Positions 13,564 to 44,513 of a DNA stretch of 51,040 nt are shown here, one piece after another (positions within the stretch are counted from its first letter, which is position 1; each line of letters opens with the position of its first letter). Source of the stretch: Candidatus Dadabacteria bacterium (GTDB lineage: Bacteria > Bdellovibrionota_C > UBA2361 > J046); assembly GCA_003696425.1 (NCBI GenBank), contig RFHI01000259.1, positions 1 through 51,040 on the forward strand. The letters are read 5' to 3'. The notes beneath the pieces were generated by a model. It was not told where the DNA came from. It ran no database searches and saw only the letters and a program-made list of their open reading frames with translations. A program made the position numbers and the translations under genes.

Positions 13564-14211
13564 ATGGCGCGTAAAGTTTCTGGTATAGTGATTTTTGTTG
13601 TGGTCGTTACAGGTTTTATTGGACTTTTAATGGTCGCATATCCGCTTAAAGCTGATCAGTCTTCCAGCTATAACAAAATTGGCAAGAGAGCCGGAGTTTA
13701 TAATGACGGCCAGGCAGCACTCTGGGATCTAAATATTCTCGATCACTTTCACTACTTTGGGCCTGAAGCGCGTGCCCGCGGTTACCGGCCTGAGCAGCCA
13801 ATTAAGTTCAGTCACGTAACCCATGTTCAAAAAAATAAAATTGAGTGCCAGTTCTGTCACTGGTCGGTAACAAAGTCTCCCTATGCGACAATACCTGAAG
13901 TAGAAGTCTGTATGGGCTGCCACAAGATGGTAAAGGGTACAAGCGATCAGCAGAAAACTGAGATTGCTAAAGTCGAAAAATACTATAACGAAGGAAAAGC
14001 AATTCCCTGGCAGAAGGTTCACGTAATGCCTGATTATGTTCATTTTAATCATAAGAGGCATATTAAGGCCGGGATGGGCTGTCAGGAGTGTCACGGACAG
14101 ATTCCTGAGATGCCTGTGGTGGAGAGAGTCTCATCGATGAAGATGGGCTGGTGCGTGTCGTGTCACAGACATGAGGGCACAAGCATTGATTGCGCAACCT
14201 GCCATTATTAA
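13564..14211 (+). CDS. actA: Alternative complex III subunit ActA, pentaheme cytochrome c
   Basis: Five CxxCH motifs (CQFCH, CMGCH, CQECH, CVSCH, CATCH), N-terminal TM anchor, first gene of an act-ordered cluster. Confidence 0.9.
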   Translation: MARKVSGIVIFVVVVTGFIGLLMVAYPLKADQSSSYNKIGKRAGVYNDGQAALWDLNILDHFHYFGPEARARGYRPEQPIKFSHVTHVQKNKIECQFCHWSVTKSPYATIPEVEVCMGCHKMVKGTSDQQKTEIAKVEKYYNEGKAIPWQKVHVMPDYVHFNHKRHIKAGMGCQECHGQIPEMPVVERVSSMKMGWCVSCHRHEGTSIDCATCHY

Positions 14212-14255
14212 AAAGGGAATATTAATACGGGTTTTCTAAGAGACTGTTAAGAGTA

Positions 14256-17252: not shown

Positions 17253-17258
17253 GGCGCT

Positions 17259-18611
17259 ATGGGAGAGGCAGCAAAAAAAGAGATAGGCTATAAGGACGTA
17301 AACGATCAGGTTTTGCGTATGCTGGAGCCGCCCGGAGCGGGCTGGTATATTCAGCTGTTTATCTGCGTTGCGCTGGTGATTGTTGGGTTTTTCTGTTGGA
17401 CCAGGCAGCTTCTGTTTGGAATGGGAATGGCTGGTATTGCCCATCCGATTATGTGGGGGGTGTATATTACTAACTTTGTATTCTGGGTTGGTATTGCGCA
17501 TTCAGGTACGCTGATTTCAGCAGTACTTTATCTTTTCCGAGCAAAGTTCCGCCAGCCGATTTACAGACTGGCAGAGGCAATGACAGTTTTCGCTGTAATG
17601 ACTGCCGGGCTTTTTCCGATAATTCACGTTGGCCGTCCGTGGTTTGCATACTGGCTTATGCCGTATCCGAATGAACGTGCACTGTGGCCAAACTTCAGGT
17701 CACCGCTGGTCTGGGATGTCTTTGCGATTTCAACTTATTTTACCGTTTCAGCGGTGTTTTTCATAGTGGGCCTTATTCCCGACATTGCTGCTGCACGTGA
17801 TCGCGCTAAAACTTTTTTCAGGAAGATGCTTTACTCGATCACATCCGTGGGCTGGACCGGAAGCCACTCAAACTGGCGCCATTACATGGCCGGGTACCTG
17901 CTTTTTGCAGCATTTGCAACGCCGCTGGTGGTTTCAGTACACAGTGTAGTGTCGTGGGACTTTGCTATGGGTAATGTGCCTGGCTGGCATGCCACTATAT
18001 TTCCGCCTTACTTTGTGGCTGGTGCAATTTTTTCGGGGGTTGCAATGGTGTTGACGCTTATTATCCCCTTAAGGCGGGTTTTTAAGCTGCACGATCTTAT
18101 TCGCCCCGAGCACTTTGATGCTATGAGTAAGCTTATAATGCTCACAAGCGGGATAGTTACTTATTCTTATCTGACGGAGTTCTATACGGCCTGGTTTAGT
18201 AATAACATCTTTGAGCGTTACCAGTTCTGGTTCAGGCCCTTTGGAGAATTTAAGGCTGCATTTTGGGGGATGGCCTTCTGTAACTGTATTGCGCCGCTTA
18301 GCCTCTGGATAAAACCGCTCAGGACCAACATTACGCACCTATTTATTCTCTCTATTATTATAAATATTGGTATGTGGCTTGAGCGCTTTAATATTATTTT
18401 CACTTCGCTTGCGCGCGAGTTCGTTCCTGCTGCCTGGGGAGGGTATAACTTTTCCTGGGTGGAGTTTGGAATAACTATAGGTGCTTTTGGCTGGTTTGGA
18501 ATGTGGATGACGCTTTTTATTAAGTTTTTTCCGGCAGTGGCAATTACTGAAATTAAGGAGGTTATGCCTGTTCCGATGAGGAACCCGGAAGCTGCCGGGC
18601 AGCATCATTAA
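17259..18611 (+). CDS. actC: Alternative complex III subunit ActC, NrfD/PsrC-like membrane protein
   Basis: 450 aa multi-TM; WIGIAHSGTLISA-like region (FVFWVGIAHSGTLISAVLYLFRAKFR), HVGRPWFAYWLMPYPNE, SVHSVVSWDFA; position after actB. Confidence 0.9.
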   Translation: MGEAAKKEIGYKDVNDQVLRMLEPPGAGWYIQLFICVALVIVGFFCWTRQLLFGMGMAGIAHPIMWGVYITNFVFWVGIAHSGTLISAVLYLFRAKFRQPIYRLAEAMTVFAVMTAGLFPIIHVGRPWFAYWLMPYPNERALWPNFRSPLVWDVFAISTYFTVSAVFFIVGLIPDIAAARDRAKTFFRKMLYSITSVGWTGSHSNWRHYMAGYLLFAAFATPLVVSVHSVVSWDFAMGNVPGWHATIFPPYFVAGAIFSGVAMVLTLIIPLRRVFKLHDLIRPEHFDAMSKLIMLTSGIVTYSYLTEFYTAWFSNNIFERYQFWFRPFGEFKAAFWGMAFCNCIAPLSLWIKPLRTNITHLFILSIIINIGMWLERFNIIFTSLAREFVPAAWGGYNFSWVEFGITIGAFGWFGMWMTLFIKFFPAVAITEIKEVMPVPMRNPEAAGQHH

Positions 18612-18630
18612 GGACTCATTGAGGAGAGTG

Positions 18631-19143
18631 ATGAAAGGCGAGAAAGCAGTTGTAGGTGTTTTTACATATATGGACGATCTGCTTACTGCGATCGAAAAAG
18701 TGAAAGCTGAGAAAAGGGATTTCCGGGTGTATTCCCCCTTTGCGCACCACCTGATTGAGCATGCAACTTCTCCGGGAAGAAGTCCGGTGAGATTTGTAAA
18801 TGGTACGGGAGCAATGCTGGGGTTAATTGCTGGCTTCGCTCTGGCAATCTGGTGTGCAATGGACTGGCCGCTAAGAGTAAGTGCCAAGGATGTGGTCTCT
18901 ATCCCCGGCTTTGTAGTTATCGGTTATGAGTGTACAATTTTGATAGGCTCGCTGGCGATTCTCGCTGCAATTTTTCATTTTTGCCGTCTTCCGAATATCC
19001 TGCGCAAAGTCGGCTATGACCCCAGGTTCTCTGATGATAAATTTGGTCTTGTGGTTGGATGCAGCAGTGGTGAAGTTGATAAGGTCGAGGCTTCACTAAA
19101 GGATGCCGGTGCTGATGAAGTTGAGGTGCGCGATGGACTTTAG
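18631..19143 (+). CDS. actD: Alternative complex III subunit ActD (DUF3341)
   Basis: VGVFTYMDDLLTAIEKVKAEKRDFRVYSPFAHHLIE and two TM helices; position between actC and actE. ATG at 18631 with upstream GAGGAGAG. Confidence 0.88.
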   Translation: MKGEKAVVGVFTYMDDLLTAIEKVKAEKRDFRVYSPFAHHLIEHATSPGRSPVRFVNGTGAMLGLIAGFALAIWCAMDWPLRVSAKDVVSIPGFVVIGYECTILIGSLAILAAIFHFCRLPNILRKVGYDPRFSDDKFGLVVGCSSGEVDKVEASLKDAGADEVEVRDGL

Positions 19144-19645
19144 GACGGTAAAACAATGGGCGCTGCTGACAGCGTTATTGACGATTATACCTTATAATGC
19201 AGCTCAGGCTCTGCCGTTTAATGATGATATGGTAGATTCCCAGCTTAGAACCGGTTCAATTATGCGGCCCAAGGCCGCCGATAGCGTCCCGCTTGGTTCG
19301 CTCGCGTTTAGAATTGAGAAAAAAGAGGATGCTTTTGATTTAATTAATCCCCAAAAAAGAGATGCTGCTTCTGTCGCACGCGGAAAGCGGCTCTTTGCGG
19401 TCAACTGTTTTCCATGTCACGGCAATATAGAAGCCAAGGAGTATAAGGGTGGCCCGGTATCAGCCAAGTTTATGGTTCCCCCTGATATCTCCGGTGCATA
19501 TTACAAAAATAAAAGTGACGGATATATTTTCGGTACAATCAGATTCGGTGGGCTGGCTGTTATGCCGGCTCTTGGCTGGAAGCTCTCTCAGTCGGAGACC
19601 TGGGATATAGTGAATTATATTAGAAGTGTTCAGGATTCTAAGTAA
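19133..19645 (+). CDS. actE: Alternative complex III subunit ActE, cytochrome c
   Basis: Signal sequence, MVDSQLRTGSIMRPKAADSVP, one CxxCH (CFPCHG), WDIVNYIRSVQ. ATG at 19133 overlaps the actD stop. Confidence 0.87.
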   Translation: MDFRTVKQWALLTALLTIIPYNAAQALPFNDDMVDSQLRTGSIMRPKAADSVPLGSLAFRIEKKEDAFDLINPQKRDAASVARGKRLFAVNCFPCHGNIEAKEYKGGPVSAKFMVPPDISGAYYKNKSDGYIFGTIRFGGLAVMPALGWKLSQSETWDIVNYIRSVQDSK

Positions 19646-19659
19646 GGAGATAAGGGTAA

Positions 19660-20940
19660 ATGTCCCATGACATTGTCTTAAACATTGATATTGATGAGGC
19701 ACTCGAAAGCGAACCGCTTAATACTGATTCTTCTTTGAGGAAGTTAATGTGGTTCTGTGTTGCTGTAGCGGTCGTAGTATTTTTTATTGCACTTGCTACA
19801 GACGATCCGCGTCATGTATGGGGAGCTTTTTATACCAACCTCGTATTTTTTATGGGCCTTGCTGCCGGGGGTGTAATGACCACTGCTATTTTTCAGATTG
19901 TGAGAGCTAAGTGGTCACCGCCGATCAGGCGCTTTGCCGAGGCTAATGTTGCATTTCTTCCCTGGGCTTTTCTTTTGTTTCTGGCAAGCTACGCCGGTAA
20001 AGAGTATCTTTTTAGCTGGGCTCAAAAACCTATGCCAGGTCGTGAATGGTGGATGCAGCCTTGTTTCGTGTATGCCCGTTTTTTTGTACTTTTTGGACTG
20101 CTTTATTATCTCTTTTACAGATTTGTGTGGACCTCTCTGCGAGGTGACATCGGCATGCTTAGGGAGCAGTCTAAAAACGCCTCGCGCTGGAAGGGTTTAA
20201 TATACAAATCTCTGGCCAAGGACTGGAAGGGTGCCGATGTTGAAGTGCCGGCTCTGCAGCGCAGAATGTCGTATTGTGCGCCAGTACTGGTTGTAATTTA
20301 CGCAGTTGTTTATACGCTCTTTTCCACAGAGATGCTGGCCGGGATGAATGAGGTCTGGTTCAGTAATATGATTGGGGGTTTCGAATTTCTCGGTAATATA
20401 TATATGGGGTGGGCTGTAACGGGCCTTTTTGCAATTTACTATGCCAGTCGTAATAGTGCTTATGAAAAAATTCTTGATAAGCAGCAGCTGTGGGATCTCG
20501 GTAAGCTATGTTTTGGGTTTTGTATGTTATGGGGCTATACTTTTTTTAGCCAGTTTTTACCGCAGTGGTATGGTAATATGCCGGAAGAGACTCAATGGTT
20601 AATTCTTAGAACCCGCGAATATCCCTGGAGAGAGTTTGGCTGGTTTACCTTCGCAATGTGCTTTGTAATTCCGTTTATACTGCTTGTCAGTGAAGACCTT
20701 AAGAAAAACCCCGTCACTTTTTCACTTGTAGCCTTTATTATCTGTATCGGTCTCTGGTGTGAAAAGTATATTATCATCATGCCTGAGCTTAGTGGTGCCA
20801 GTATACCCTTCTCATATGTTGAGGTGGCGCTATTCTTTGGTTTTTTGGGTGCTTATATTTTAAGTATCTCAGCTTTTCTTAGAACTTTCCCGTATGTGCC
20901 GCTGTCGCATCCGCTTACACGCGGAAGTACTGACTGGTAG
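19660..20940 (+). CDS. actF: Alternative complex III subunit ActF, NrfD-like membrane protein
   Basis: 426 aa multi-TM; FFMGLAAGGVMTTAIFQIVRAKWSPPIRRFAE, HVWGAFYTNLVFFMG; last gene of the act cluster. Confidence 0.9.
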   Translation: MSHDIVLNIDIDEALESEPLNTDSSLRKLMWFCVAVAVVVFFIALATDDPRHVWGAFYTNLVFFMGLAAGGVMTTAIFQIVRAKWSPPIRRFAEANVAFLPWAFLLFLASYAGKEYLFSWAQKPMPGREWWMQPCFVYARFFVLFGLLYYLFYRFVWTSLRGDIGMLREQSKNASRWKGLIYKSLAKDWKGADVEVPALQRRMSYCAPVLVVIYAVVYTLFSTEMLAGMNEVWFSNMIGGFEFLGNIYMGWAVTGLFAIYYASRNSAYEKILDKQQLWDLGKLCFGFCMLWGYTFFSQFLPQWYGNMPEETQWLILRTREYPWREFGWFTFAMCFVIPFILLVSEDLKKNPVTFSLVAFIICIGLWCEKYIIIMPELSGASIPFSYVEVALFFGFLGAYILSISAFLRTFPYVPLSHPLTRGSTDW

Positions 20941-30266: not shown

Positions 30267-32085
30267 TTTTTGACTGTCTTTTTGGCCGCTGTTGCCTGTT
30301 TCTGTTGCGCTTTCTTTTTTGGGCAAGCTCTACCTGAAGTTCTGCAACTGACCATTCAAACTTTGGATGCTTGCCTGTTTGAACTACAAGCAAACAGGAT
30401 GTTGTTAAAGGCTCAGAAAAATAGAGCGTTACATCACTCTGTCCGCCATAATAGGGGTACCCCTCAGGGGTAACCTGCACAGGACCCTGCCAGTTGGGTT
30501 GACTGTATACCGTTTTATAAGATTTGAATCGATCCATCTGCTTGGTTCTTCCGTGAAAGCATTTGTCGCCAGTCTTTACGGTAATGCCACGTGGAAAATC
30601 AGCAAGATAAATACCCGGATCAAGCTTTAATGCACCAACTTTAAGCGGTTCTTTAAAGTAAATGTGCAGCCACTCGCCACCAATTTGTCGTCCCAGTGCA
30701 GTTGACCAACGTGTAGCGGGATTTGAATCAAACATTTTTTTTAGAACCTTTCGATTATTATGATGTGAGCTATAAACTCTAATAATTTTTCTGCGTTTAA
30801 GCAGGTGCCTAAAAGATAAAATCCTCTTTCGGTGCTTAATAGCCCAGATGCCCTCATTTAAGATTACATTGAGTGATGGGGAAGCAATGATCTTGCGTTC
30901 TTCTGCGCCGGAAGCAGCGTAGATGCTATGTGGCGCTTGCTTCTGCAGAATTGCCGCAGGCTGCTCCCCTGCCTTTGTGGCTAACAGAACTGCAATAAAT
31001 ACTGGTAGAACAGTTGCAACTGCAATATGGCTCCTTAAACTTAGCTCTGCAAAATAAATAATGGCCAGTGAAAAAAAGATCGGTAAAAGTGGAATAAAAA
31101 ACAATCCTGGCAGCAATCGCCCTATTACCGCTACTGGCATAATAGAGGCAATCGATTCAGCGGGAAGTGAATCCAGCAAAGAATTTCCGGCCAGCAGGCA
31201 GAGAATAACAAGTGTATCTCGCGTAGCCTTGTTTGAGTTATACAGGATGATTAGTAAAATCAAGGCAACTAAAGTCAGAAGAAGTGAAGGTGCAAAGTAA
31301 ATAGATTTTAATCCTGCACGATTAATAAACGGAATTGATGGAGCTGAACTGATTAGTGGTGTAATAATGCCGGGTAGTCCATCGTCCGGTACCACATGAG
31401 CCAAAAAAGGGTAGTCCGGGATATGGGGCGCAGGGAAAACTATACCCGTGTAAAACATTATTGCCCCCGATGTCAAAAGGACCAGTTTAACTGTTGTATT
31501 AATGGGGGAGCTGTGTTCTTTAGAATAAAGAGCAATGAGCAGCGCCAGGATGTAAAGTAATAACGCCAGCGGGCCAGTTGCCAGTGCAGATACAGGAGCT
31601 GCTAAAACCACCAGCAGTTTCCACAGCAGCGCTGAATGTTGTGAGTTTAGTAGCTTGTCTAAAATGACACTTAGCAGCGCAAACCAGCTGATAGAAGCCA
31701 GTACGACCCGATCGCTTCCGAAAAGGATAATTACTGCGCAAGTAAGCAATAGAGTCCCTGGAGCCGCTAGGAGTCTTCTATCTGTTGGTAATTTAAAAAA
31801 TAAAAATATATAAACTGATACAAATAAAATAAATACCTCTGCTAGCAGGTAAGCCTTACTCGGTTGGGCCAATAATTGTTGCAGGACCTCGCCGATCAGC
31901 CTCAGAATTGGGCCGTCACGCCAGAGGTGATAAGCATTGTGGGTTGCGCTTGCAATAGTGTAAATACTGCCATCAACAGGTTTTAGCGGATAGGTAAGAT
32001 AAGGATCAAGTAAAGGTGCACAGAGCAGATATGCAAACCATAATGCAATCAGCAGGTAAATCGGTGATAAAATATATTTATTCAT
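30244..32085 (-). CDS. Integral membrane protein with C-terminal discoidin/F5-8C-like domain
   Basis: 613 aa, about ten hydrophobic segments, then FDSNPATRWSTALGRQIGGEWLHIYFKEPLKVGALKLDPGIYLADFPRGITVKTG, a pattern typical of F5/8 type C domains. Basic C-terminal tail. Confidence 0.6.
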   Translation of the reverse strand: MNKYILSPIYLLIALWFAYLLCAPLLDPYLTYPLKPVDGSIYTIASATHNAYHLWRDGPILRLIGEVLQQLLAQPSKAYLLAEVFILFVSVYIFLFFKLPTDRRLLAAPGTLLLTCAVIILFGSDRVVLASISWFALLSVILDKLLNSQHSALLWKLLVVLAAPVSALATGPLALLLYILALLIALYSKEHSSPINTTVKLVLLTSGAIMFYTGIVFPAPHIPDYPFLAHVVPDDGLPGIITPLISSAPSIPFINRAGLKSIYFAPSLLLTLVALILLIILYNSNKATRDTLVILCLLAGNSLLDSLPAESIASIMPVAVIGRLLPGLFFIPLLPIFFSLAIIYFAELSLRSHIAVATVLPVFIAVLLATKAGEQPAAILQKQAPHSIYAASGAEERKIIASPSLNVILNEGIWAIKHRKRILSFRHLLKRRKIIRVYSSHHNNRKVLKKMFDSNPATRWSTALGRQIGGEWLHIYFKEPLKVGALKLDPGIYLADFPRGITVKTGDKCFHGRTKQMDRFKSYKTVYSQPNWQGPVQVTPEGYPYYGGQSDVTLYFSEPLTTSCLLVVQTGKHPKFEWSVAELQVELAQKRKRNRNRQQRPKRQSKIRRPPAS

Positions 32086-34307
32086 GACCTGAAAAGTAAT
32101 CTCCGATAAGCTGGCATGCTTTTCAAAGTGATCGTACGGTTAAGCGGACAATTTTCAAGCTCCACAAGCACCACCTCTGGTGCTGCTTGGTATGGTTTGA
32201 CTGCACATCCAGTAGCCTCAAGAAACGGAAAGTAATTGTATTTAATAACTGCATCTTTACTTTTCAGCTTAAGGGTTACTGAGTTTGAATTTTGTTGCAG
32301 CACCTTACCCTGGCCCTTTAAAAAGTAAGAACTCTTGAAATCCTTACGAACAAAGAGGTGAAACCTGCCTTCTGTGGCCACCCGCACAAACTTTTCAGGG
32401 TGGTTTGTAAAAAATTTTTTCCAGCGCCGTTCATGTGCAAAGATTGCTGATACATTGTACAGATCCAGGTACTCTTCGATTCCTTCAAGTCTTCTATTAA
32501 TAAAGCTGTGCGGGAATAACTGCTTATACCTCCACAGATTGTGCACGTAGCTTGAGGCCATAAGAGGCTTGCCGGTCAAATATGCAAGTGGCGCCAGATG
32601 AGCATGGTTTAACTCGTGCAGCACAAAGCCGGAAAAGGCGATACGTCCACCAACTGAAAGATTCCGAATAGTTTCTATCAGGTGATCGGTTTTTGGTTCT
32701 TTAAAGTAATATTTTACCAGTGAATGATTAACAGTAATAGCTGCGGTCGCAAGTGGACCGCTTAACAGAAATCCACTAATAAGGGCCACAAGGGAACGGC
32801 TTATTATTCCTGACTTTTCTGTCACATTTCTTTTCATTAAAGTTGAGATTGCAGCAGCAGCAGGAATACATGCGATTATTTGTAATATCACCAGCATGCG
32901 ATCCAACTCAAGCTGTGGTTTTAGAGGAGATAATCCAGCCCCCATTATTAGAAGCCAAAGCGATGTAGCGGCAATAAGCCAGCCAGACAGGCCCCCGATT
33001 AATGTCAGACCTGGCAGCAACATAAAAATAAGCAAAGGATTTGTCGAAATAGTTTTTTCACGTAAAGCTTTCAGGCTATCTTTTAAATTCAAGCTAGCTG
33101 CATTTTTTTTAAATGTTTTGTGCTGGCCTGTCAGAGATGCTTCCGCCTCCTGAGCCATGCTGGTATAAGCCGGCTTTTCGGATTTTATAAATTTAGAAAC
33201 GTTTGATACTGACCAGAAAATGGAGATCCATGGAAGATTAATCGCGATAATTGCGACAGCCAGAGGAATTAGCAGACGTTTTTTTAACAGAGCACCGCGG
33301 CCGCAAAAGGCCATTACAACTTTTGCTAAACCAATCAACATAGCCGGGATAAGTACCAGCCCCGAAGGCGACCATAACAACACCAGAGAAAACAGCAGTA
33401 CATACAAAATAGCTTCAGTCAAGGTTAACCTAATATGCTCATTCAACAATCTGCAGGTAAGCGCTAAAAGAAGTGGAAGTAGCGAGGTGCTTGTTACAAA
33501 TCCCATGGTGCCATACTTTAAACCCCACTCAAACCATGTCAGGCTGGTTGAAACCGACAGGATCGAAGCAATTGCCGGGGCGGGATGCTTGAGATTCACA
33601 AGCCTGCAAGCGCAGTACGAGGAAAGCGGCAGCAGCACAAATAATACACCCACCACGATAAAATTATATATCTGCTCAACGGGGTAGAGATAGATAAGCG
33701 GAGAGAAGAGTAAAAACACATTAAGCGCGCCCGTAGCAAAAAAATCGCGGTTATCTATTCCGCCATTCCAGAATGGATTGTAAAAGGGGATAGAAGGAAA
33801 ATTTTCTTTTAGAAGTTCCAGTCTATACAGAAAAGTGGAGTGATCGTCAGAGAATATAAGGCGGCCAGCGCTCTCCCAGAAAAAACAACCTATACACAGT
33901 GTGATCGCCAAAATGGCAGTTACGGGTAAACTTTGTTCGGGAGCTTTATTGACAAAGAAAAAACTGCAGAGCGACATGAAAATTATCTCTCCGCGGATGG
34001 AAGGGCCTTGAAAAAAATTGTAGCGGTGGTTTAGCCAGTCGCTGAGAAAAACCAGACAAATTGCGAACGCAAAGAGCTCTAACATTATCAGGCGACCTGA
34101 CAGGTTTAAGCCGTTCAGTAGTATGCCCAGAACGCAGAGAATCGCTCCCGATACCAGCACTGCTTTTGCGTTGGAATAAAGTGTTAACCCGTTGTGATCC
34201 CATAGGGCAAGGGATTTGATGGAGAGAGAAAATATAAAAAGCAGTAGTCCACCTGATACTAGCAGGGTTGCGAATCTATTTTTTGTATCGTAGCCGGAAT
34301 GTTCCAT
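32082..34307 (-). CDS. Large multi-TM membrane protein, GT-C-like
   Basis: 741 aa, more than ten hydrophobic segments, SDDHSTFLYRLELLKENFPSIPFYNPFWNGGIDNR. Its stop overlaps the start of the downstream gene (ATGA). Confidence 0.6.
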   Translation of the reverse strand: MEHSGYDTKNRFATLLVSGGLLLFIFSLSIKSLALWDHNGLTLYSNAKAVLVSGAILCVLGILLNGLNLSGRLIMLELFAFAICLVFLSDWLNHRYNFFQGPSIRGEIIFMSLCSFFFVNKAPEQSLPVTAILAITLCIGCFFWESAGRLIFSDDHSTFLYRLELLKENFPSIPFYNPFWNGGIDNRDFFATGALNVFLLFSPLIYLYPVEQIYNFIVVGVLFVLLPLSSYCACRLVNLKHPAPAIASILSVSTSLTWFEWGLKYGTMGFVTSTSLLPLLLALTCRLLNEHIRLTLTEAILYVLLFSLVLLWSPSGLVLIPAMLIGLAKVVMAFCGRGALLKKRLLIPLAVAIIAINLPWISIFWSVSNVSKFIKSEKPAYTSMAQEAEASLTGQHKTFKKNAASLNLKDSLKALREKTISTNPLLIFMLLPGLTLIGGLSGWLIAATSLWLLIMGAGLSPLKPQLELDRMLVILQIIACIPAAAAISTLMKRNVTEKSGIISRSLVALISGFLLSGPLATAAITVNHSLVKYYFKEPKTDHLIETIRNLSVGGRIAFSGFVLHELNHAHLAPLAYLTGKPLMASSYVHNLWRYKQLFPHSFINRRLEGIEEYLDLYNVSAIFAHERRWKKFFTNHPEKFVRVATEGRFHLFVRKDFKSSYFLKGQGKVLQQNSNSVTLKLKSKDAVIKYNYFPFLEATGCAVKPYQAAPEVVLVELENCPLNRTITLKSMPAYRRLLFRS

Positions 34308-34366: not shown

Positions 34367-35434
34367 TCAATGGGCAATCTTGTCCAAACCAAGCTCCCTG
34401 TAAAAGGGATCGAAGTTAAAGACAGCTTCAGCAAAACAGTCCAAAGCCTGGTCGTTATCGTGCTTATTTAAAGCTTCAAGGCCCTGCTCAAGGCGGGAGT
34501 TAATAAGTTCCAGGTTGTCCGGATTAAAGGTGATATAGCGGTTCTTACCGGAACGCGATGTTTTACGAAGTTCATACTGCTGAAGACTTGACACCAGATT
34601 GGCTACAGCTCCAAGTGTTTCTCCTTTTCTTAAAGAGATTAAGGCGCGTAAGGCCAGGGAGCGGGGACTCTCATCAAGGGTGTCTCCTAACTGCAAGCAC
34701 TCTAATGCAAGATCCAGGCTGCCGAGACTTATAAAGTGAGCAGCAAGGGTGTGGTAACAAAGAGCTGCGCACTCTTCCTGGTGAGAATCCCAAGCCTTAT
34801 CAGGAAAGAGCTCTTCTATATTGCAAATATTAACCGCGTTATGCAGGGCACGACTCAAACTTTGCTCATCAAGAGGCGCTGAATCCTGCCCTGATTCTGA
34901 ACAGGACGACCTGATTAGCTGCTGTCCGGAGTTCAAAGCTGCAATCATAGCCGCCATGATGAAATCTGTAGCATTCTCTATCTGAAGCTCTGAGTTTAGT
35001 GTTCCTTGCAGTTCTGTTGTGATGCTTATATGTGCTGCAGGAGCGCTTGGTCGTCTCATTATGTAACCAACCAGCATATCTGTATTATTGATCGGAAATT
35101 CAGGGGAGTTCCCTTCTATAGCTGTAAAGAGTAGGGCATCATTGGTAAGCTCGCTGGCTTCAGCGATTAATGCTTCAACGGCCTCGCTATTCCAGACAGC
35201 AGCATCAATAATCACAAGTCGGTTGGCGTTACCGTTGTTAGTTACATTTGAGATTGCCTCGAGTATTGAGACATGGGCCGGATTAAATACAACAACATCT
35301 TTTAACAGCCGATCCTGATTAATGGTACCAATAACGCTTACGTCACTTACAGCGTCCGCACCAGACAGACCGTTAATTACCTCTACGATCCGATTATCGT
35401 TAGCTCCGTTCTGAATAACAATAACGCTCGACAT
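34367..35434 (-). CDS. Hypothetical protein with TPR-like C-terminal region
   Basis: 355 aa; CYHTLAAHFISLGSLDLALECLQLGDTLDESPRSLALRALISLRKGETLGAVANL and HDNDQALDCFAEAVFNFDPF look like helical TPR-type repeats. Confidence 0.5.
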   Translation of the reverse strand: MSSVIVIQNGANDNRIVEVINGLSGADAVSDVSVIGTINQDRLLKDVVVFNPAHVSILEAISNVTNNGNANRLVIIDAAVWNSEAVEALIAEASELTNDALLFTAIEGNSPEFPINNTDMLVGYIMRRPSAPAAHISITTELQGTLNSELQIENATDFIMAAMIAALNSGQQLIRSSCSESGQDSAPLDEQSLSRALHNAVNICNIEELFPDKAWDSHQEECAALCYHTLAAHFISLGSLDLALECLQLGDTLDESPRSLALRALISLRKGETLGAVANLVSSLQQYELRKTSRSGKNRYITFNPDNLELINSRLEQGLEALNKHDNDQALDCFAEAVFNFDPFYRELGLDKIAH

Positions 35435-35937: not shown

Positions 35938-36411
35938 GTGGAAACTTTTAAAAAAGTCTTTTTAAATGGGAATGTCAGGCATAGCAGCTTAATGAAACGT
36001 AAAATAAGTGACCTTTTTGATACGGGTATAGTTTCGATAAGCGCAGATGCGTCGTTGCATGATGCGTTGGAAAAGCTTATCGAATTTGATGCCCAGGAAG
36101 CGCTGGTTCAGGATTCGCCTGATACCATTGAAGGGGTTTTATATAAATCTTCTATTTTGAAGCTACTTGATACTCCGGGTAGTGATCCATTTAATTTTAA
36201 GGTTCGCAGTCTTGTCGATCGTCGTATGTGTCTTGAGCCTGATACTGCTACGTTTGGTGAGATTGTCTCAAGAATGGCGCTGGGGCTTTGCCGCTCAACA
36301 GTTGTCGTTGATCGGCTTGGCAGACCCGTTCAGATTTTAACACCCGCCAAGCTTTTATCGCTTCTCGGAGGAACTCACTATCCAGTTCCCGCTGAAAAGG
36401 CATACTCCTGA
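35938..36411 (+). CDS. CBS-domain protein
   Basis: GTG start; KISDLFDTGIVSISADASLHDALEKLIEFDAQEALVQD and STVVVDRLGRPVQILTPAKLLSLLG. Confidence 0.65.
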   Translation: METFKKVFLNGNVRHSSLMKRKISDLFDTGIVSISADASLHDALEKLIEFDAQEALVQDSPDTIEGVLYKSSILKLLDTPGSDPFNFKVRSLVDRRMCLEPDTATFGEIVSRMALGLCRSTVVVDRLGRPVQILTPAKLLSLLGGTHYPVPAEKAYS

Positions 36412-36651: not shown

Positions 36652-39600
36652 TTAAAACGCACTTCCTATGCTGAAGTGGAAACGAAACGACGGCTCACCA
36701 GCGCGCTCATCGAGCGGATGACCTATGTCAAAACCGATTGGACCAATTGGTGAGAGATAACGAATTCCAATTCCAGCGCTTTCCCTCAGATCCCCGGAAG
36801 ATATCGAGCGATCCTTTAAGAAGACCGTGCCTGCATCAAAGAAGCCGATTAAAGAGGTGAAATCATTTAATCTGTAACGAAGCTCTGTGTTTTGCTGCAG
36901 CAGTAAATCCCCACCAATAACGCTCCCAGCGACTCCGCGCGGTCCAAGTGAGTTTTCCCTGAATCCTCGGACTGAAGTTCGACCACCGAGATAATATCTC
37001 TGACTTATAGGAACATTGTCTGTGCCGTTAAATGTCCACAGTGATCCGGCTCTGGAGTTAAATGCAAAAGAGATACGGCGATCAAATAAAGGTAGTGGTT
37101 TAATAAAAGAAAATTTACCCTCCAGTCCAAAATAACTTGCATCAGAACCTAATTTTTTGGTGGCCAGCAATGCATCTAGCGAGAGATTAAACCCACGCGT
37201 TGGATTAAGGCGGCTATCACGACGGTCATAGTTTAAAGATGCGCTAACGAAACTGAGCTTGACTGTACCGGTATCGAACTTTCCAATAACTGCATCAGGG
37301 GAGACGTTATCAAGGTTCTCTTCAAGTAAAGTGTGGCCAAGAGATAGATCAAAATCATCACTAAAGGATCTTAATACGAACGAAGTCAGCGAGATGCGGT
37401 CAAGATCAAATTCCTGATTAGCAAGTTCCAGCTTTTGATATCTGAGATCTTCTGTTAGCCGGTAATTACTATCAAACAAAAATGGGTCTGAATAACGCAG
37501 ACTTGCAATGCCTTCAGTTACAGACGCGACAGTAGGGTCATAATAAAGATCGGCTCTCATAGCAAGGCCGCGGCCATCTGCAAAAATACCGCGATCTGTA
37601 AATTCGCCAAAAAGATGTGTTCCAAATTCAGAGTGGACACCGCCACCGATTTCAAGTGTATGGAGCGAACGCTCTATAACTGTGACTGTCAGCTGCTCAG
37701 TTGGCTGATCAAGAGAGCCGTCGGACGGTTCAAATTGAACTCGTGAAAATAATCCCAGTCGCAATAATCGCTTACGCGATAGATCAATTAACTCCTGATC
37801 CCACGGGTCTCCCGCTTGCACCAATAGTCGACTTTTAATTACTGAAACATCAATATTTTGAGCGCCCTTAATAATAATAGAGCTTATCCTTGTCCGCTTG
37901 CCGGGATTGATTAAGAGAACAGCCGGTTCATTGGAAGCCTTCATCTGAGTAGTTATTTCGGCCTTCAAGTAGCCGGCACGTATAAGTTTTTCAAGCAGTG
38001 TTTCAATATAGCTATTGATTTTTGGCACTGAAATGGGTTTATCAGGTTTTTTCGGTAGTTGAATTTTATCGGGCCAGTTTTCAGTTATTATTTTGCTGGC
38101 TATCAGCCTGTCCCCTTCGGAAATGTGATAAATGATTTTTACACTTCGCTCGTCTTGATTAGGTACGATTCGATACTTAACCATCGCTGCAGGAAACCCC
38201 TGCCAGACATAAACCTCTTTAATCGCCTCACTGTTGTGTCTTAGCATTTCATCTACAGCAAACTCAGGGCTTAAAATATCATCGCTAAATTCTGGAAAGC
38301 GCTCTTCGATCAACTTCGAGAGATTTTCCGAACTTAGCGACTTATTTCCTTTAAACTCAACTCCTGAAACCGGGACGCGCTCTTCTTCTATGATATTTAT
38401 CCTGTAATTTATACGATTATCAGTGCTAACATCCCTGGTGTAGCTAATGGTTGCATAAAGGTAGCCGGCTTCTCGGTATAGTCGTTCAATATTTTCAATT
38501 AATATATTGATTGTGTTAGCACCAAATGGTTGTTTGCGTTTAAAAAGATTAATGGTGTTTAGGAAATCGTTTGCAGAGAATACCGTGTTGCCGCTGAAAT
38601 AAAAGCTCACCGGCGCACCACTATAAACACTGAGCACAAGCTTGGCTCTGGAGCCGCGCAGTTTTTTATACTCTGCTGAAACGCGTGCCCCAATGAAACC
38701 TTCAGAGCGTAATTTGTGTAAGACCAAATTCTGGATTTTGGTCAGATACTGGCGAGTAGCGACTGTGTTTTTTGCTGGTTGATCTACAATGTTATTAACA
38801 AACTTAGGGAGGTTTTCACCTCTTATTATAATTTTAGAAATTGTATAAATTGTACCTTCCTTAACGGTTATAGATAGTTTTTTGCAATAGTCTCCCCCAA
38901 GCTCGCACTTGACCAGAGCAATAGCATCCATGTATCCGGTATTGTGGTAATAATCTTCAATGCTGCGTTTGATCTTATCAAGAGCGCTTTCAGGTATACG
39001 CGATGTGTTGTTTAGCCTTAAATGTGTAAGCAGCTTTCCCCTTGAAATGGCTTTATTGCCATTAATGTTTATTTCTAAAAGTTTTTTCTGCGAGCTTAAA
39101 ATAGTGTATGTTAGGTCAAGGGCCAGTGCATCACGCTGATTATTGTCGACTGTTTGCAACATGCCGGCAAGATTCAATTCATCAGTAAGATCGTAGCTTA
39201 GGACCAGGGACGATTCGGAGTTGGCCGCACTGATAAAGCTCTTGGCAATTATTGCAAGCCGGTTGCTAAGATTTTTTTGTGCTATTATTTGAGGTTCAAT
39301 AACGCCACGACGTCTGTTGTAATTAGGTTCAAGTGAAAGTGTGTCAATAGATGTCAGTCGTGAGAACAGCGCGCCGAGTAGAGAGCTTTCTGAGGAATCT
39401 TCTGCATCCAGGAGAAGAGGCTCGAAATCCCGCTCTGCTGAGCCTGCTCTGGTTTGCCTTATATCCCGCCCGCCAGTCGTAATTAAGGTTAGCAGTTCTT
39501 TTTGAGAATATGGGCTGTCAGAACTTAGTTCAATCGTAGGCGACGTTAGTGGTCCGTGTGCTTCGAGAATAACAAGAATATTATCCCCTTCTCTCGATCT

Positions 39601-42354
39601 AACATAAGTTTCGGCAAGCATGTTTAATTCTGGTTCCCTGGTTGCAGGTGAAAACCTGATTTCTCCCGAGGTAATCTCGAAACGCCTGCCCTTTAAACCT
39701 AACCACCCCCTGAGAGAATTCATTGTACCGCTAATGCGCGGCTTGTCGAGCGTCCCACCTATATGAACGTCTGCCCGGAATTCAGCTCCCAGCCAGTTGG
39801 TGAGAATAAAAATATTTCGGCCGGCAGTAAGTGAAACATCCAGATCCAGTGATGGAAGAGCATTTAACTTGATCTGTGAAGACCTGTTTGTAATCAGATA
39901 GTCTCTAATGGTTTCAACCAGCGTGAGTAAATCAAACTTGCGTTTAAACTCCGCATTTTCTATCTCAATTTCGCCGGCGATAGCTGTTCGTCCCAACTCA
40001 TTTTGAGTTAAAGATAAAGAGCCTGATAGTATAACAGGTGTCTCTTCAAGCAGCTCCAAAGACATATTTGAAAACTTTAGATCACAAAAAGATTTTTCGA
40101 ATGTAAGTGGGAAAATTTCAGCTGCAATTTGAAAGCGCCCGCCATTAAGCAATCCAGTAAGCTTTTTAACCTTTATAAATTTCTGGCTAAGAACGATATC
40201 ACCGCTGATATCGTGCGAACTTATATTGGCAGATTCTATAGAGAGCTCGCCGTTGTTAACGGTAAATGAACCGCTTAGTTGCGGATTATCTAAAGATCCG
40301 TTTATAGTAGCATGCCCTTTAATGTTACCTCTTATATCATCCACGTTAGGCAGGAGTGGCAAAAGAGTAGCAAGTTTCAGTTTGCCGGCTAATTCGATTT
40401 GATACCCTGATTTTTGGCTGATACTTCCATCCAGAACAAAGTGACTCTGTTCTCCGCTAAGCACAATCTTATTGAGAGTAAACCTTCCTGACTGAATTGG
40501 CAGTTTTGTAGGGTTCTTCAACGAGACAGTATAGGGTTTGCAGCCAATCTCGATATTATTAAGATCAATCGAGCCATCTCCAGCCAGCACAGCCTGTAAC
40601 GGAAAATTATAATTAAGATCAGCAGAGATTCTTACGCACTGAAGCTCAGGATTATATTCTTTTGGTTTAAATTCGTTTAATATTAACGAGAGTGTCCCAC
40701 GGTTGCGATTTTTAGCGGTAACTGTGATTTTTGAGCTAATGGAGCCACTCTGATTTGAAAGGTTTAGAGTAAGTATTCCTGAGGTTAATTTTAGATCGCT
40801 ATTCAGTGCAGCTTCCCCCTTAAAATGCCTCGAAGCAACTTTGAGTCTGGCGTTGAGAGATAGCCCGCTAAAGTTTAACGCTCCGCTACCCGAACCACTG
40901 CCTGTTATGAAAATCGGCTCTCTGAACAGCAGATCTTGTTCAGGTAAAAATGACAGATATAAGGGAAGGGCGTCTGTTTTAAAATTCAACTTCTGTAGCG
41001 TAGGTGAATCAGTCAAAATCACATTGCCGCTGGCAGAGAGCTTATCTTTATTTAGGCTGTCGGTTAGTAAAAAATTAAGATGCGCACCTTTGACACTAAG
41101 CTGAAGCAGTAAATTCTTTAACATCATTCCAGTGTATCTGACTGTTTTAACGCTGGATCGCCACTTCCAGACCGGCTCATCTAACTTGCCTCCAAGCTTT
41201 AACATGCCGCTGATACCTGAGATCTCTCCATCAGGAAGTTTAATGCTGCCAATTTCTATATGTACGGCTCCCCGCAATTCATCGTCATTAAGCTTCAATG
41301 GTTGCTGAAGTTTTAGCGCCGCTAACGGCCCAATGCCGTTAAGAGTCTCTATCGAACCTAGCGGTTTGCCGTGATTAGTATCAAACTTAAAACTTCCATT
41401 AACTTTCTCCAGATCGAAAAGTTTAAGTGTGCCAGCAAAAATGCCCGCTGATTCCTTCGCGGGTAATGAGAACTTCCCTTTGAGCGCCGGACTGCCAAGC
41501 GTGCCCCCAAGCGAGGCACTTCCTTCGATATTACTGTGAATCATTTCAGGTGCTCCCAGAGCGCGCTGATCGAGAAAAAAGCGTACTTTTCCGGACAGGG
41601 AGTTCCCCTGATCTGTTAACGACCTTGCTATTATGTCCACACGGGACTTAAAACGGGTCAGAAAAATTTTACTAAAATCAATCAAGCTATCATAAATTTC
41701 AAAGGTCGAGTGTACTTCGCCGAGATAAATTGCTGTGGGTTCCTGGCTCTGCCTGTGTTTAGTTAACTCCAGCGAGAGTTTTTTTATAAACGGAGAAAGC
41801 ACAAAATTGTTACGTTTATTTCTGATCATTTTCAGACCCACACCAGAACCCCTGAGAGTTGAGCGGCTAAATGGCTCGCTGAAGGCGGAATCTATAACTG
41901 TCAGGTTGTGGAGTTTTAGCTTAATGAGCGGAGCTTTGCCGGACGACGATGGTTCAGATAGATGGTCAATAAACTTAAAGGTTGGACTTTCGGGGCCGAC
42001 CCCATCAGCGTAGCCGTTAATCAGTTTCAGTTCATCAAGGTGAATTACATGCTTAAAAATATCTCTCAGGCTGAAACTGGCAGTGATTATCGGAAAGTTA
42101 AGAGCTTTATGGCCATCTGCAATTATGGCTGCATTTTGAGCTTTAGCCCTGAGTGTGATCAGTGACAGGCTAACAGTGTCTACTTTAAATTCGCATTCGC
42201 ACGATGCAGCTACTTCGTCGGCCAGCAGGTCAACAAGCTCAAGTGCCAGATAACGCTTAAGACCTAGGATAGAAAATCCTATTAAAACACCAAACACAAG
42301 CCCGGCCATAGCCAGTCTGGTTCCGCCTCTTTTTTTATAAATTGTGTTTGGCAT
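36652..42354 (-). CDS. TamB (AsmA/DUF490)-like protein fused to an Omp85/TamA-BamA-like POTRA plus beta-barrel
   Basis: Single 1900-codon ORF. N-terminal TM anchor (GGTRLAMAGLVFGVLIGFSILGL). TamB repeats and DUF490 (GGTLDKPRISGTMNSLRGWLGLKGRRFEITSGEIRFSP...ILEAHGPLTSPTIELSSDSPYSQKELLTLITTG). POTRA repeats from about 39085. Omp85 barrel from about 37670 (YYLGGRTSVRGFRENSLGPRG, IGPIGFDIGHPL, C-terminal F). Confidence 0.88.
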   Translation of the reverse strand: MPNTIYKKRGGTRLAMAGLVFGVLIGFSILGLKRYLALELVDLLADEVAASCECEFKVDTVSLSLITLRAKAQNAAIIADGHKALNFPIITASFSLRDIFKHVIHLDELKLINGYADGVGPESPTFKFIDHLSEPSSSGKAPLIKLKLHNLTVIDSAFSEPFSRSTLRGSGVGLKMIRNKRNNFVLSPFIKKLSLELTKHRQSQEPTAIYLGEVHSTFEIYDSLIDFSKIFLTRFKSRVDIIARSLTDQGNSLSGKVRFFLDQRALGAPEMIHSNIEGSASLGGTLGSPALKGKFSLPAKESAGIFAGTLKLFDLEKVNGSFKFDTNHGKPLGSIETLNGIGPLAALKLQQPLKLNDDELRGAVHIEIGSIKLPDGEISGISGMLKLGGKLDEPVWKWRSSVKTVRYTGMMLKNLLLQLSVKGAHLNFLLTDSLNKDKLSASGNVILTDSPTLQKLNFKTDALPLYLSFLPEQDLLFREPIFITGSGSGSGALNFSGLSLNARLKVASRHFKGEAALNSDLKLTSGILTLNLSNQSGSISSKITVTAKNRNRGTLSLILNEFKPKEYNPELQCVRISADLNYNFPLQAVLAGDGSIDLNNIEIGCKPYTVSLKNPTKLPIQSGRFTLNKIVLSGEQSHFVLDGSISQKSGYQIELAGKLKLATLLPLLPNVDDIRGNIKGHATINGSLDNPQLSGSFTVNNGELSIESANISSHDISGDIVLSQKFIKVKKLTGLLNGGRFQIAAEIFPLTFEKSFCDLKFSNMSLELLEETPVILSGSLSLTQNELGRTAIAGEIEIENAEFKRKFDLLTLVETIRDYLITNRSSQIKLNALPSLDLDVSLTAGRNIFILTNWLGAEFRADVHIGGTLDKPRISGTMNSLRGWLGLKGRRFEITSGEIRFSPATREPELNMLAETYVRSREGDNILVILEAHGPLTSPTIELSSDSPYSQKELLTLITTGGRDIRQTRAGSAERDFEPLLLDAEDSSESSLLGALFSRLTSIDTLSLEPNYNRRRGVIEPQIIAQKNLSNRLAIIAKSFISAANSESSLVLSYDLTDELNLAGMLQTVDNNQRDALALDLTYTILSSQKKLLEININGNKAISRGKLLTHLRLNNTSRIPESALDKIKRSIEDYYHNTGYMDAIALVKCELGGDYCKKLSITVKEGTIYTISKIIIRGENLPKFVNNIVDQPAKNTVATRQYLTKIQNLVLHKLRSEGFIGARVSAEYKKLRGSRAKLVLSVYSGAPVSFYFSGNTVFSANDFLNTINLFKRKQPFGANTINILIENIERLYREAGYLYATISYTRDVSTDNRINYRINIIEEERVPVSGVEFKGNKSLSSENLSKLIEERFPEFSDDILSPEFAVDEMLRHNSEAIKEVYVWQGFPAAMVKYRIVPNQDERSVKIIYHISEGDRLIASKIITENWPDKIQLPKKPDKPISVPKINSYIETLLEKLIRAGYLKAEITTQMKASNEPAVLLINPGKRTRISSIIIKGAQNIDVSVIKSRLLVQAGDPWDQELIDLSRKRLLRLGLFSRVQFEPSDGSLDQPTEQLTVTVIERSLHTLEIGGGVHSEFGTHLFGEFTDRGIFADGRGLAMRADLYYDPTVASVTEGIASLRYSDPFLFDSNYRLTEDLRYQKLELANQEFDLDRISLTSFVLRSFSDDFDLSLGHTLLEENLDNVSPDAVIGKFDTGTVKLSFVSASLNYDRRDSRLNPTRGFNLSLDALLATKKLGSDASYFGLEGKFSFIKPLPLFDRRISFAFNSRAGSLWTFNGTDNVPISQRYYLGGRTSVRGFRENSLGPRGVAGSVIGGDLLLQQNTELRYRLNDFTSLIGFFDAGTVFLKDRSISSGDLRESAGIGIRYLSPIGPIGFDIGHPLDERAGEPSFRFHFSIGSAF

Positions 42355-42941: not shown

Positions 42942-44513
42942 TTGTCATTACCCGCATTACCCGATTTTCCCCTGCAGGCAGACCTTAACAGCGATTCGGA
43001 CAATCCGTCGATCATGCGCTTCTGGTTGCGCATGGTTTCAGAACTAAAAGTTTTTGAAGCTGATGGCCTGTATGCTGTTCCGCATGAAGAACAAGCTATT
43101 CAGTTGCAGGTAAAACGGAGGGAATATTTCCTTAAAAAAATAAACGTAAAAAAGGAATTAGTAGCTCAGCTCGTTGGATTTCTGTACAGCAGGGTTTCAG
43201 TTGTGCTGGCCGATCTGAGTGGCGCTAGCGGTCTTTTAAAAAGTGACGAGCAGGAGTTTGAGTTTGTAACCGCAATTTCTGCTAATAAAAACGTTTTGAT
43301 TGCAAGGGTTAGTGTAAATATAGCAGAAAGAACATTTCATATGACGAATTTTCGCTGGTTGGAAACCGATAGAGCACTTGAGGTTTGTGGACTGTCGGAT
43401 TTTTACAGGACAGTATTTTTAAATATAATAAGTGTGTCTTGTCGGGAAGAAAGACCTGTCATAATTGCGGCTCCTTCTGAGGAGCATCTCCTGTTGCTTG
43501 GAGCGTTGGTCAGAACATTTGTCAACTCAGAAAAACTGAATATTGAAGTTACCGCTCCTGCCATCGTGAAAATTACTGAAGATGACAGTATACGAGCTCT
43601 TGGCAGGTTTATAACTGATAGTGAACCGCATGGAGCGAAACCAGCTGGAGTTATATGTGGCATGTTTCTGGAAGCAGCCGCTTCAGGCACAAAACTTTCA
43701 TTTAAATTGACCGATCTGGAGAAACTGCCTGTAGCACTTTCGGATAAGCTTATAGGAGCAGAAAGTTCAAATACGCTAATTGCAAAAGAGCCAGTGGGGG
43801 CTGGAAGCTATACGGGTATTTTTAGTCTTATTCCGCCAGGAGAGATGCTGGATCTTATCTTCGATGACCGGGCAAGCTTAGAGAATATGGCCGCAATGCT
43901 TTATCCGCTTGGCACACGTGCGTTAGTTGAAGATGGTATCGAGAAGATTTTATTAGGTAGAGTTAACCCGCACGATGTTTTTGATTTGTTGCCTGAATTG
44001 CCGGAATATTATCTTAAATATTGTGGGAGACATAAGGCCCTTGAAGCTACCGGTGGAGCCTTTTCAGACAAAGATCTGGCTGCCGCAATAACAGCCGAAG
44101 AAATGGAGGCAGACAGTGAAGAAGAACAGGCCGGGGACAGTAGACGAATACTGGTTGTAGAGGATGATAAGGATCAGAGACAAATTCTTGAAATGGTTTT
44201 GAAAGCTGCTGGTTATGAGGTAACACTTGCAGAAGACGGTGAACGTGGACTTGAACTGCTTAATAAGCATGGGGCTGATCTTGTAATTACTGATTTGATG
44301 ATGCCGGGCATGGATGGAGCAGAGCTTATAAAAAGTCTGCGTTCATCAGATAAATTTAAGAGACTGCCCATACTGGTTCTTACTGTGGTTTCAGATGATG
44401 AAAGAGAGTATGAACTGCTCGAACTAGGTGCCGATGATTTCTGTAACAAGCGCATACAACGCCGCTTACTGCTGACACGCATTTCAAAGTTGTTGGACAG
44501 GCCTAGGGCGTAA
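42942..44513 (+). CDS. Degenerate PilB/GspE-like ATPase fused to a response-regulator receiver domain
   Basis: The C-terminal REC domain from about 44140 has an acidic pair (VVEDDKDQ), phospho-acceptor LVITDLMMPGMDG, LVLTVV, and Lys in GADDFCNKR. The preceding region GSYTGIFSLIPPGEMLDLIFDDRASLENMAAMLYPLGTRALVEDGIEKILLGRVNPHDVFDLLPEL follows the PilB/GspE C-terminal pattern. Confidence 0.7.
   Translation: MSLPALPDFPLQADLNSDSDNPSIMRFWLRMVSELKVFEADGLYAVPHEEQAIQLQVKRREYFLKKINVKKELVAQLVGFLYSRVSVVLADLSGASGLLKSDEQEFEFVTAISANKNVLIARVSVNIAERTFHMTNFRWLETDRALEVCGLSDFYRTVFLNIISVSCREERPVIIAAPSEEHLLLLGALVRTFVNSEKLNIEVTAPAIVKITEDDSIRALGRFITDSEPHGAKPAGVICGMFLEAAASGTKLSFKLTDLEKLPVALSDKLIGAESSNTLIAKEPVGAGSYTGIFSLIPPGEMLDLIFDDRASLENMAAMLYPLGTRALVEDGIEKILLGRVNPHDVFDLLPELPEYYLKYCGRHKALEATGGAFSDKDLAAAITAEEMEADSEEEQAGDSRRILVVEDDKDQRQILEMVLKAAGYEVTLAEDGERGLELLNKHGADLVITDLMMPGMDGAELIKSLRSSDKFKRLPILVLTVVSDDEREYELLELGADDFCNKRIQRRLLLTRISKLLDRPRA

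Follow-up and report, generated by a model that had tools for sequence, protein, structure and literature searches.

We identified a gene whose sequence encodes a complete TamB, a linker of about seven residues, and then the POTRA domains and barrel of an Omp85 protein that relatives encode as the next gene. TamB and an Omp85 barrel are ordinarily separate proteins that come together in the periplasm to supply the outer membrane. The fusion, a chain of 1900 residues, is real and is conserved in one order of uncultured double-membraned bacteria. It lies in a window of 51,040 nucleotides, the whole stretch of DNA analysed. The chain is predicted to begin with an anchor helix and a 57-strand beta-taco, to continue through a six-strand element and about six POTRAs, and to end in a 16-strand barrel; covalent linkage in the same chain would hold TamB 1:1 with its Omp85 partner. 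We consider it likely that the product is a single-chain translocation and assembly module (TAM) that bridges the two membranes at a fixed 1:1 ratio and forms its hybrid barrel in cis. Homology suggests that it is anchored in both membranes, conducts lipid and has insertase activity.

A single intact reading frame joins TamB to an Omp85 protein

The gene consists of 1900 codons, the first of them ATG, and a stop, with no internal stop; given the local base composition, a frame would stay open for this long with a probability of ~1e-48. The first-pass annotation had given this uninterrupted frame its exact coordinates, 36652-42354, and left the strand unstated; the gene is on the minus strand, running from 42354 to 36652. 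Its codon limits, which end TamB near 1090 and the POTRAs near 1560 and close the barrel with Phe, agreed with ours, and a break suspected at 39.0-39.2 kb proved to contain neither a stop nor a frameshift. Promoter and terminator scans gave results at or near chance level. The gene and its parts are as follows.

36652..42354, minus strand: whole TamB-Omp85 fusion gene (intact ORF, Pfam, relatives sharing the architecture)
42256..42321, minus strand: predicted N-terminal signal anchor or inner-membrane helix, residues 12-33 (hydropathy scan; long helix 10-51 in the model)
39520..42201, minus strand: predicted TamB beta-taco or groove of 57 strands, residues 52-945, including the DUF490 core (Pfam, AF2 model, Foldseek and profile matches)
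39097..39342, minus strand: TamB C-terminal six-strand element, residues 1005-1086 (both AF2 models, hhalign, pN/pS, identity)
39076..39096, minus strand: junction, a 7-residue linker, residues 1087-1093 (alignment of 29 fusions; no hydrophobic segment)
37672..39075, minus strand: about six POTRA-like domains, residues 1094-1561, the fifth degenerate (Pfam POTRA, POTRA_1 and POTRA_2; model; conservation)
36655..37662, minus strand: predicted 16-strand Omp85 barrel with C-terminal Phe, residues 1565-1900 (Pfam, model, Foldseek)

The N-terminal half is a complete TamB, in which the TamB domain, the predicted anchor, the beta-taco, and the C-terminal helices and six strands were all found. The Pfam TamB model (DUF490, PF04357) matched residues 738-1084 at 136 bits against a cut-off of 22.4 (E 2.5e-39). 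Residues 12-33 were the only strongly hydrophobic segment of the whole chain in a hydropathy scan, and by prediction they form an uncleaved N-terminal signal anchor. We modelled the chain with AF2 as two overlapping pieces, residues 1-1090 and 701-1900. The first model (mean pLDDT 81, pTM 0.54) consists of the N-terminal helix, 57 successive beta strands, short helices and six last strands (1005-1083). At about 4.8 A per strand, the 57 predicted strands would extend roughly 27 nm, enough to cross the periplasm. Foldseek returned as best match for this half 9xdc_B, which is TamB in the hybrid-barrel state of E. coli TamAB; LPD-3, a bridge-like lipid transfer protein of eukaryotes, came second, ahead of 9xdd_B and 5vtg_A; taking structure and sequence-profile searches together, the E. 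coli TamB entries matched were 9xdc, 9xdd, 5vtg and 23sp. Using hhalign, the C-terminal TamB half aligned with E. coli TamB as far as the last strand (97.4% probability, E 1.1e-11), which reads ALDLTYT in the fusion and ALDLLYQFEF at the E. coli TamB C-terminus.

In the C-terminal half, Pfam recognised four POTRA stretches (E 2.5e-33) and an Omp85 domain over residues 1613-1900 (E 1.2e-49), all above curated cut-offs, and Foldseek matched this half to BamA and TamA structures. The second AF2 model (pLDDT 82, pTM 0.73) again contained the six strands, followed by about six POTRA-like units and 16 barrel strands. HMMs, profile-profile comparison with E. coli TamB and structure comparison assigned both halves. 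The third POTRA (about residues 1251-1330; 38365-38604) had a mean identity of 0.51, compared with 0.29-0.36 in the other POTRAs; possibly the TamB groove or a partner docks there. No signal peptide was found at the junction in the hydropathy scan of the fusion, so an Omp85 half made separately could not be exported.

The junction and the six strands before it are conserved

Searching relatives for the same architecture, as the first-pass annotation had proposed, showed the fusion conserved and in frame in 32 genomes. These comprise all 29 genomes analysed from the order, spanning 13 families, both genomes of the sister family f14, and one genome (G038) from another lineage of the class. The junction was crossed in one open frame in every case; some fusion genes in the order were cut by contig ends, away from the junction. 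Within the order, at about 28-45% protein identity, the alignment of 29 fusions showed a junction of invariant length and no indels between the last TamB strand and POTRA1. Among nearer relatives, both sides of the junction were under purifying selection (pN/pS 0.05-0.35).

The six-strand element had the lowest pN/pS of any segment in all four pairs compared (0.05-0.12), and its mean identity was 0.37-0.52. Across the order, it was more conserved than the other parts of TamB except the DUF490 core, and more conserved than every POTRA except the third. The six strands were likewise conserved in the pair of separate tamB and omp85 genes tested, so the constraint on them is retained rather than new. 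We also tried amphipathic alternation of the six strands as a test; it gave no discrimination, since groove strands alternate as well.

A probable origin in neighbouring tamB and omp85 genes

Other lineages of the class (G030, G032-G035, G037, G039-G045) carry separate genes, tamB first and then omp85, which overlap by 1 or 4 nt or lie 1 nt apart in most and are 14 nt apart in one. The split Omp85 starts with its own signal peptide and the split TamB ends in a C-terminal tail of 15-20 residues, both of which are absent from the order's fusion. Because a lipA or response-regulator gene adjoins both forms, we regard fused and split forms as the same locus, and since the split relatives already have tamB first, no rearrangement is needed to obtain this order. 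The fusion would have originated when a tamB-omp85 pair, of the kind that usually overlaps, lost through deletion the stop codon, the tail of TamB and the signal peptide of Omp85.

The fusion in G038 (L049 2226-7853, minus strand; 1875 aa) differs at the junction, which retains the TamB tail and is longer by about 21 residues but likewise has no signal peptide. In the Omp85 tree, fused and split proteins formed one clade apart from canonical BamA (support 95), with G038 placed among the split proteins. In the RpoB tree, f14 was sister to the order (support 99) and G038 was nested among split lineages. One early fusion, in the ancestor of the order and f14, and one later independent fusion, in G038, explain both trees, which agree on these two origins. 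The genome G039 has two rpoB copies (L102, L103) in different parts of the tree, and its bin is probably contaminated.

Outside the class, no junction-spanning protein was found among the matches listed (to about 51 bits) across 337 genomes, a search that could miss very different junctions. No fusion was found among 9 and 4 genomes of the phyla of G349 and G142, and a scan of named genomes with a single fusion protein returned only distant canonical BamA or TamA. One candidate from another phylum, an open frame of 1679 aa in G216, was rejected because it contains a standard BamA that starts with a signal peptide, and the GC-rich frame is open by chance. Separately, a TamB match in a genome of another phylum (G342:C19:4551-5111) contains an in-frame TGA and TAA, from gene decay, a frameshift or an error in sequencing.

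The Omp85 half groups with TamB-linked, BamA-like proteins

We then asked which Omp85 class the C-terminal half belongs to. The NCBIfam TamA model (NF047950) scored the fusion at 133 bits against a cut-off of 625, the POTRA count is about six against three in TamA, and in the Omp85 tree the fusion grouped with split TamB-linked Omp85s, separated from TamA by a branch of 95% support, though TamA is itself a long branch. The TamL model gave 79.9 bits against a cut-off of 400. For the BamA model (TIGR03303), the fusion scored 338.9 against a cut-off of 297, its orthologue L008 scored 289.9, and the fusion of G029 had no match. A separate bamA, which the first-pass annotation had suggested looking for, is present on another contig (775 aa, 685.8 bits by TIGR03303), and most relatives also have a canonical BamA, in its own clade (support 95). 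The genome also encodes LptD and one AsmA-like ORF; no second TamB was found in it. By model, POTRA number and tree the Omp85 half is not TamA proper, and by the tree it is not a BamA orthologue; it sits in a TamB-linked, BamA-like clade. The original proposal of a one-polypeptide translocation and assembly module was right that TamB and an Omp85 protein share one chain, with the correction that the Omp85 half is not TamA in the strict sense. The product is best called a single-chain TamB-Omp85, probably working in a TAM-like manner.

A proposed hybrid barrel in cis

The TamB-first order is topologically workable, as originally suggested. The N-terminus would be anchored in the inner membrane, and the C-terminal barrel, once folded by BamA, would hold the chain in the outer membrane too. 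Such a permanent 1:1 bridge could conduct phospholipids along its hydrophobic groove, aid the folding of some outer-membrane proteins, or both. The last TamB strand would pair with the first barrel strand of its own chain to give a hybrid barrel in cis, and the POTRA string, attached at both ends to adjacent strands of the composite barrel, would become a closed loop.

This proposal draws on E. coli TamAB, for which a hybrid barrel, crosslinks and lipid filling the groove have been described: the last TamB strand pairs with TamA barrel strand 1, and the remaining C-terminal strands lie inside the barrel (PMC12800296). The reported TamA-TamB disulfides, 267-1258 and 269-1256 (PMC12800296), imply antiparallel pairing, so that TamB terminates at the periplasmic end of TamA strand 1; from there the chain may run on into POTRA1. 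Because the linker is short, a hybrid barrel in cis would need POTRA1 folded back near the barrel. A similar TamB-BamA arrangement has been modelled in Borrelia, with POTRA1 near POTRA5 (PMC13382580). For the fusion, sequence and predicted secondary structure agree with a hybrid barrel. If the six strands were a mere recruitment device, selection on them should have relaxed after covalent attachment, and their low pN/pS shows that it has not. Their strong constraint suggests that fusion did not make docking redundant and favours, without proving, a working hybrid barrel. The fullest form of the proposal is a polypeptide integral in both membranes that is at once lipid bridge and cis composite barrel, with a POTRA loop, permanent docking, and lipid flow and barrel insertion that dissociation could not separate; we put it forward tentatively, leaning slightly against it as a whole.

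An alternative reason for the conservation of the six strands is that they pack on POTRA1. On this account the protein is a covalent TAM in which the six strands pack on the POTRAs outside the barrel, the fusion merely fixes stoichiometry, and the barrel is an ordinary Omp85 insertase. In E. coli and Borrelia, the C-terminal region of TamB is indeed bound by TamA POTRA1 and BamA POTRA2-3 (PMC11014939, PMC13382580), and the short linker sets the six strands directly against POTRA1. The last strand nevertheless keeps the sequence pattern of the hybrid barrel, strongly conserved, and the hybrid state occurs in vivo in E. coli (PMC12800296), which leaves packing outside the barrel unlikely, though it deserves serious weight. 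We regard as improbable that the chain is a precursor cut near residue 1087 into TamB and Omp85 to give an ordinary two-protein machine. The junction has no signal-peptidase-like segment, its invariant length in the order provides no variable linker suited to a protease, and the independent second fusion, with its longer junction, still has no signal peptide. Against this, polyproteins can in principle be processed, degradation of large envelope proteins is common, and the chain could still be cleaved by a regulated protease.

Replacement of BamA by the Omp85 half, which would make the fusion the main outer-membrane protein insertase with TamB attached, is suggested by its score above the BamA cut-off. 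The canonical BamA in the same genome and in most relatives, together with the orthologues that fall below the cut-off or lack a match, makes this very improbable. As the source genome is a 280-contig draft, an assembly or sequencing artefact, or a chance stop loss in one genome, might be suspected; it is refuted by the recurrence of the architecture in 32 genomes with an indel-free junction throughout the order, and we give it negligible weight. A single-chain TAM with a hybrid barrel in cis remains our preferred reading.

Neighbouring genes

Several genes in the window recur beside the fusion. Several families of the order encode, near the fusion, a 355-aa protein with no Pfam match (34367-35434, minus strand; 36-64% identity), which is a possible functional partner; its gene is usually followed by that of a large membrane protein (32082-34307). 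A short CBS-domain protein (35938-36411, plus strand) is convergent to the fusion gene and conserved in some relatives, and a response-regulator protein (42942-44513, plus strand) lies divergently upstream of fused and some split forms. Elsewhere in the window, a gene run at 13564-20940 (plus strand) resembles alternative complex III by reading of the translations, from which we recognised a multihaem cytochrome, a molybdopterin/iron-sulfur fusion, two NrfD-like membrane proteins and a monohaem cytochrome.

Significance and comparison with known systems

TamB might form a stable 1:1 bridge or only a transient contact with its Omp85 partner, a question debated mostly on the basis of E. coli. 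The fusion arose twice and has been kept across an order of 13 families, and this history provides evolutionary evidence that function tolerates stable 1:1 coupling. It also indicates that where TamA is absent, the partner of TamB can be a dedicated BamA-like Omp85. Structural studies would gain in this protein a TAM that already exists as a single chain, and it offers a simple design test, in which parts of a known TAM are fused in the same order. Searching the open-access literature, we found no description of a natural TamB-Omp85 fusion; the words 'fused' and 'fusion' are absent from a 2015 paper on TAM evolution. The fusion is apparently an undescribed variant of a known machine.

Like E. 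coli TamA-TamB, the fusion combines an anchor, a beta-taco, DUF490 and six C-terminal strands, and would be 1:1 with a POTRA-bearing Omp85 barrel. It differs in being one polypeptide, in having the TamB half first (tamA comes first in E. coli), in carrying about six POTRAs rather than three, and in having an Omp85 half that neither model nor tree identifies as TamA. The hybrid BAM-TAM of Borrelia burgdorferi, BB0795-BB0794, and the BamA-TamB pairs of other phyla without TamA (Heinz et al. 2015) resemble it in coupling TamB to a BamA-like Omp85 with more than three POTRAs, and in some phyla tamB comes first, as in the fusion. Borrelia, however, uses its sole BamA and two separate proteins, whereas the fusion joins a second, dedicated Omp85 covalently while a separate BamA remains. 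The split pairs of the class share its Omp85 clade, gene order and neighbours, and differ in being two genes instead of one. In TamL-TamB of Bacteroidota, the partner of TamB is likewise an Omp85 other than TamA, but TamL is a separate lipoprotein. Finally, the fusion resembles bridge-like lipid transfer proteins such as YhdP and VPS13 / LPD-3 in its long hydrophobic groove, predicted here to bridge two membranes; to our knowledge, the known members of that group have no barrel of their own in the acceptor membrane.
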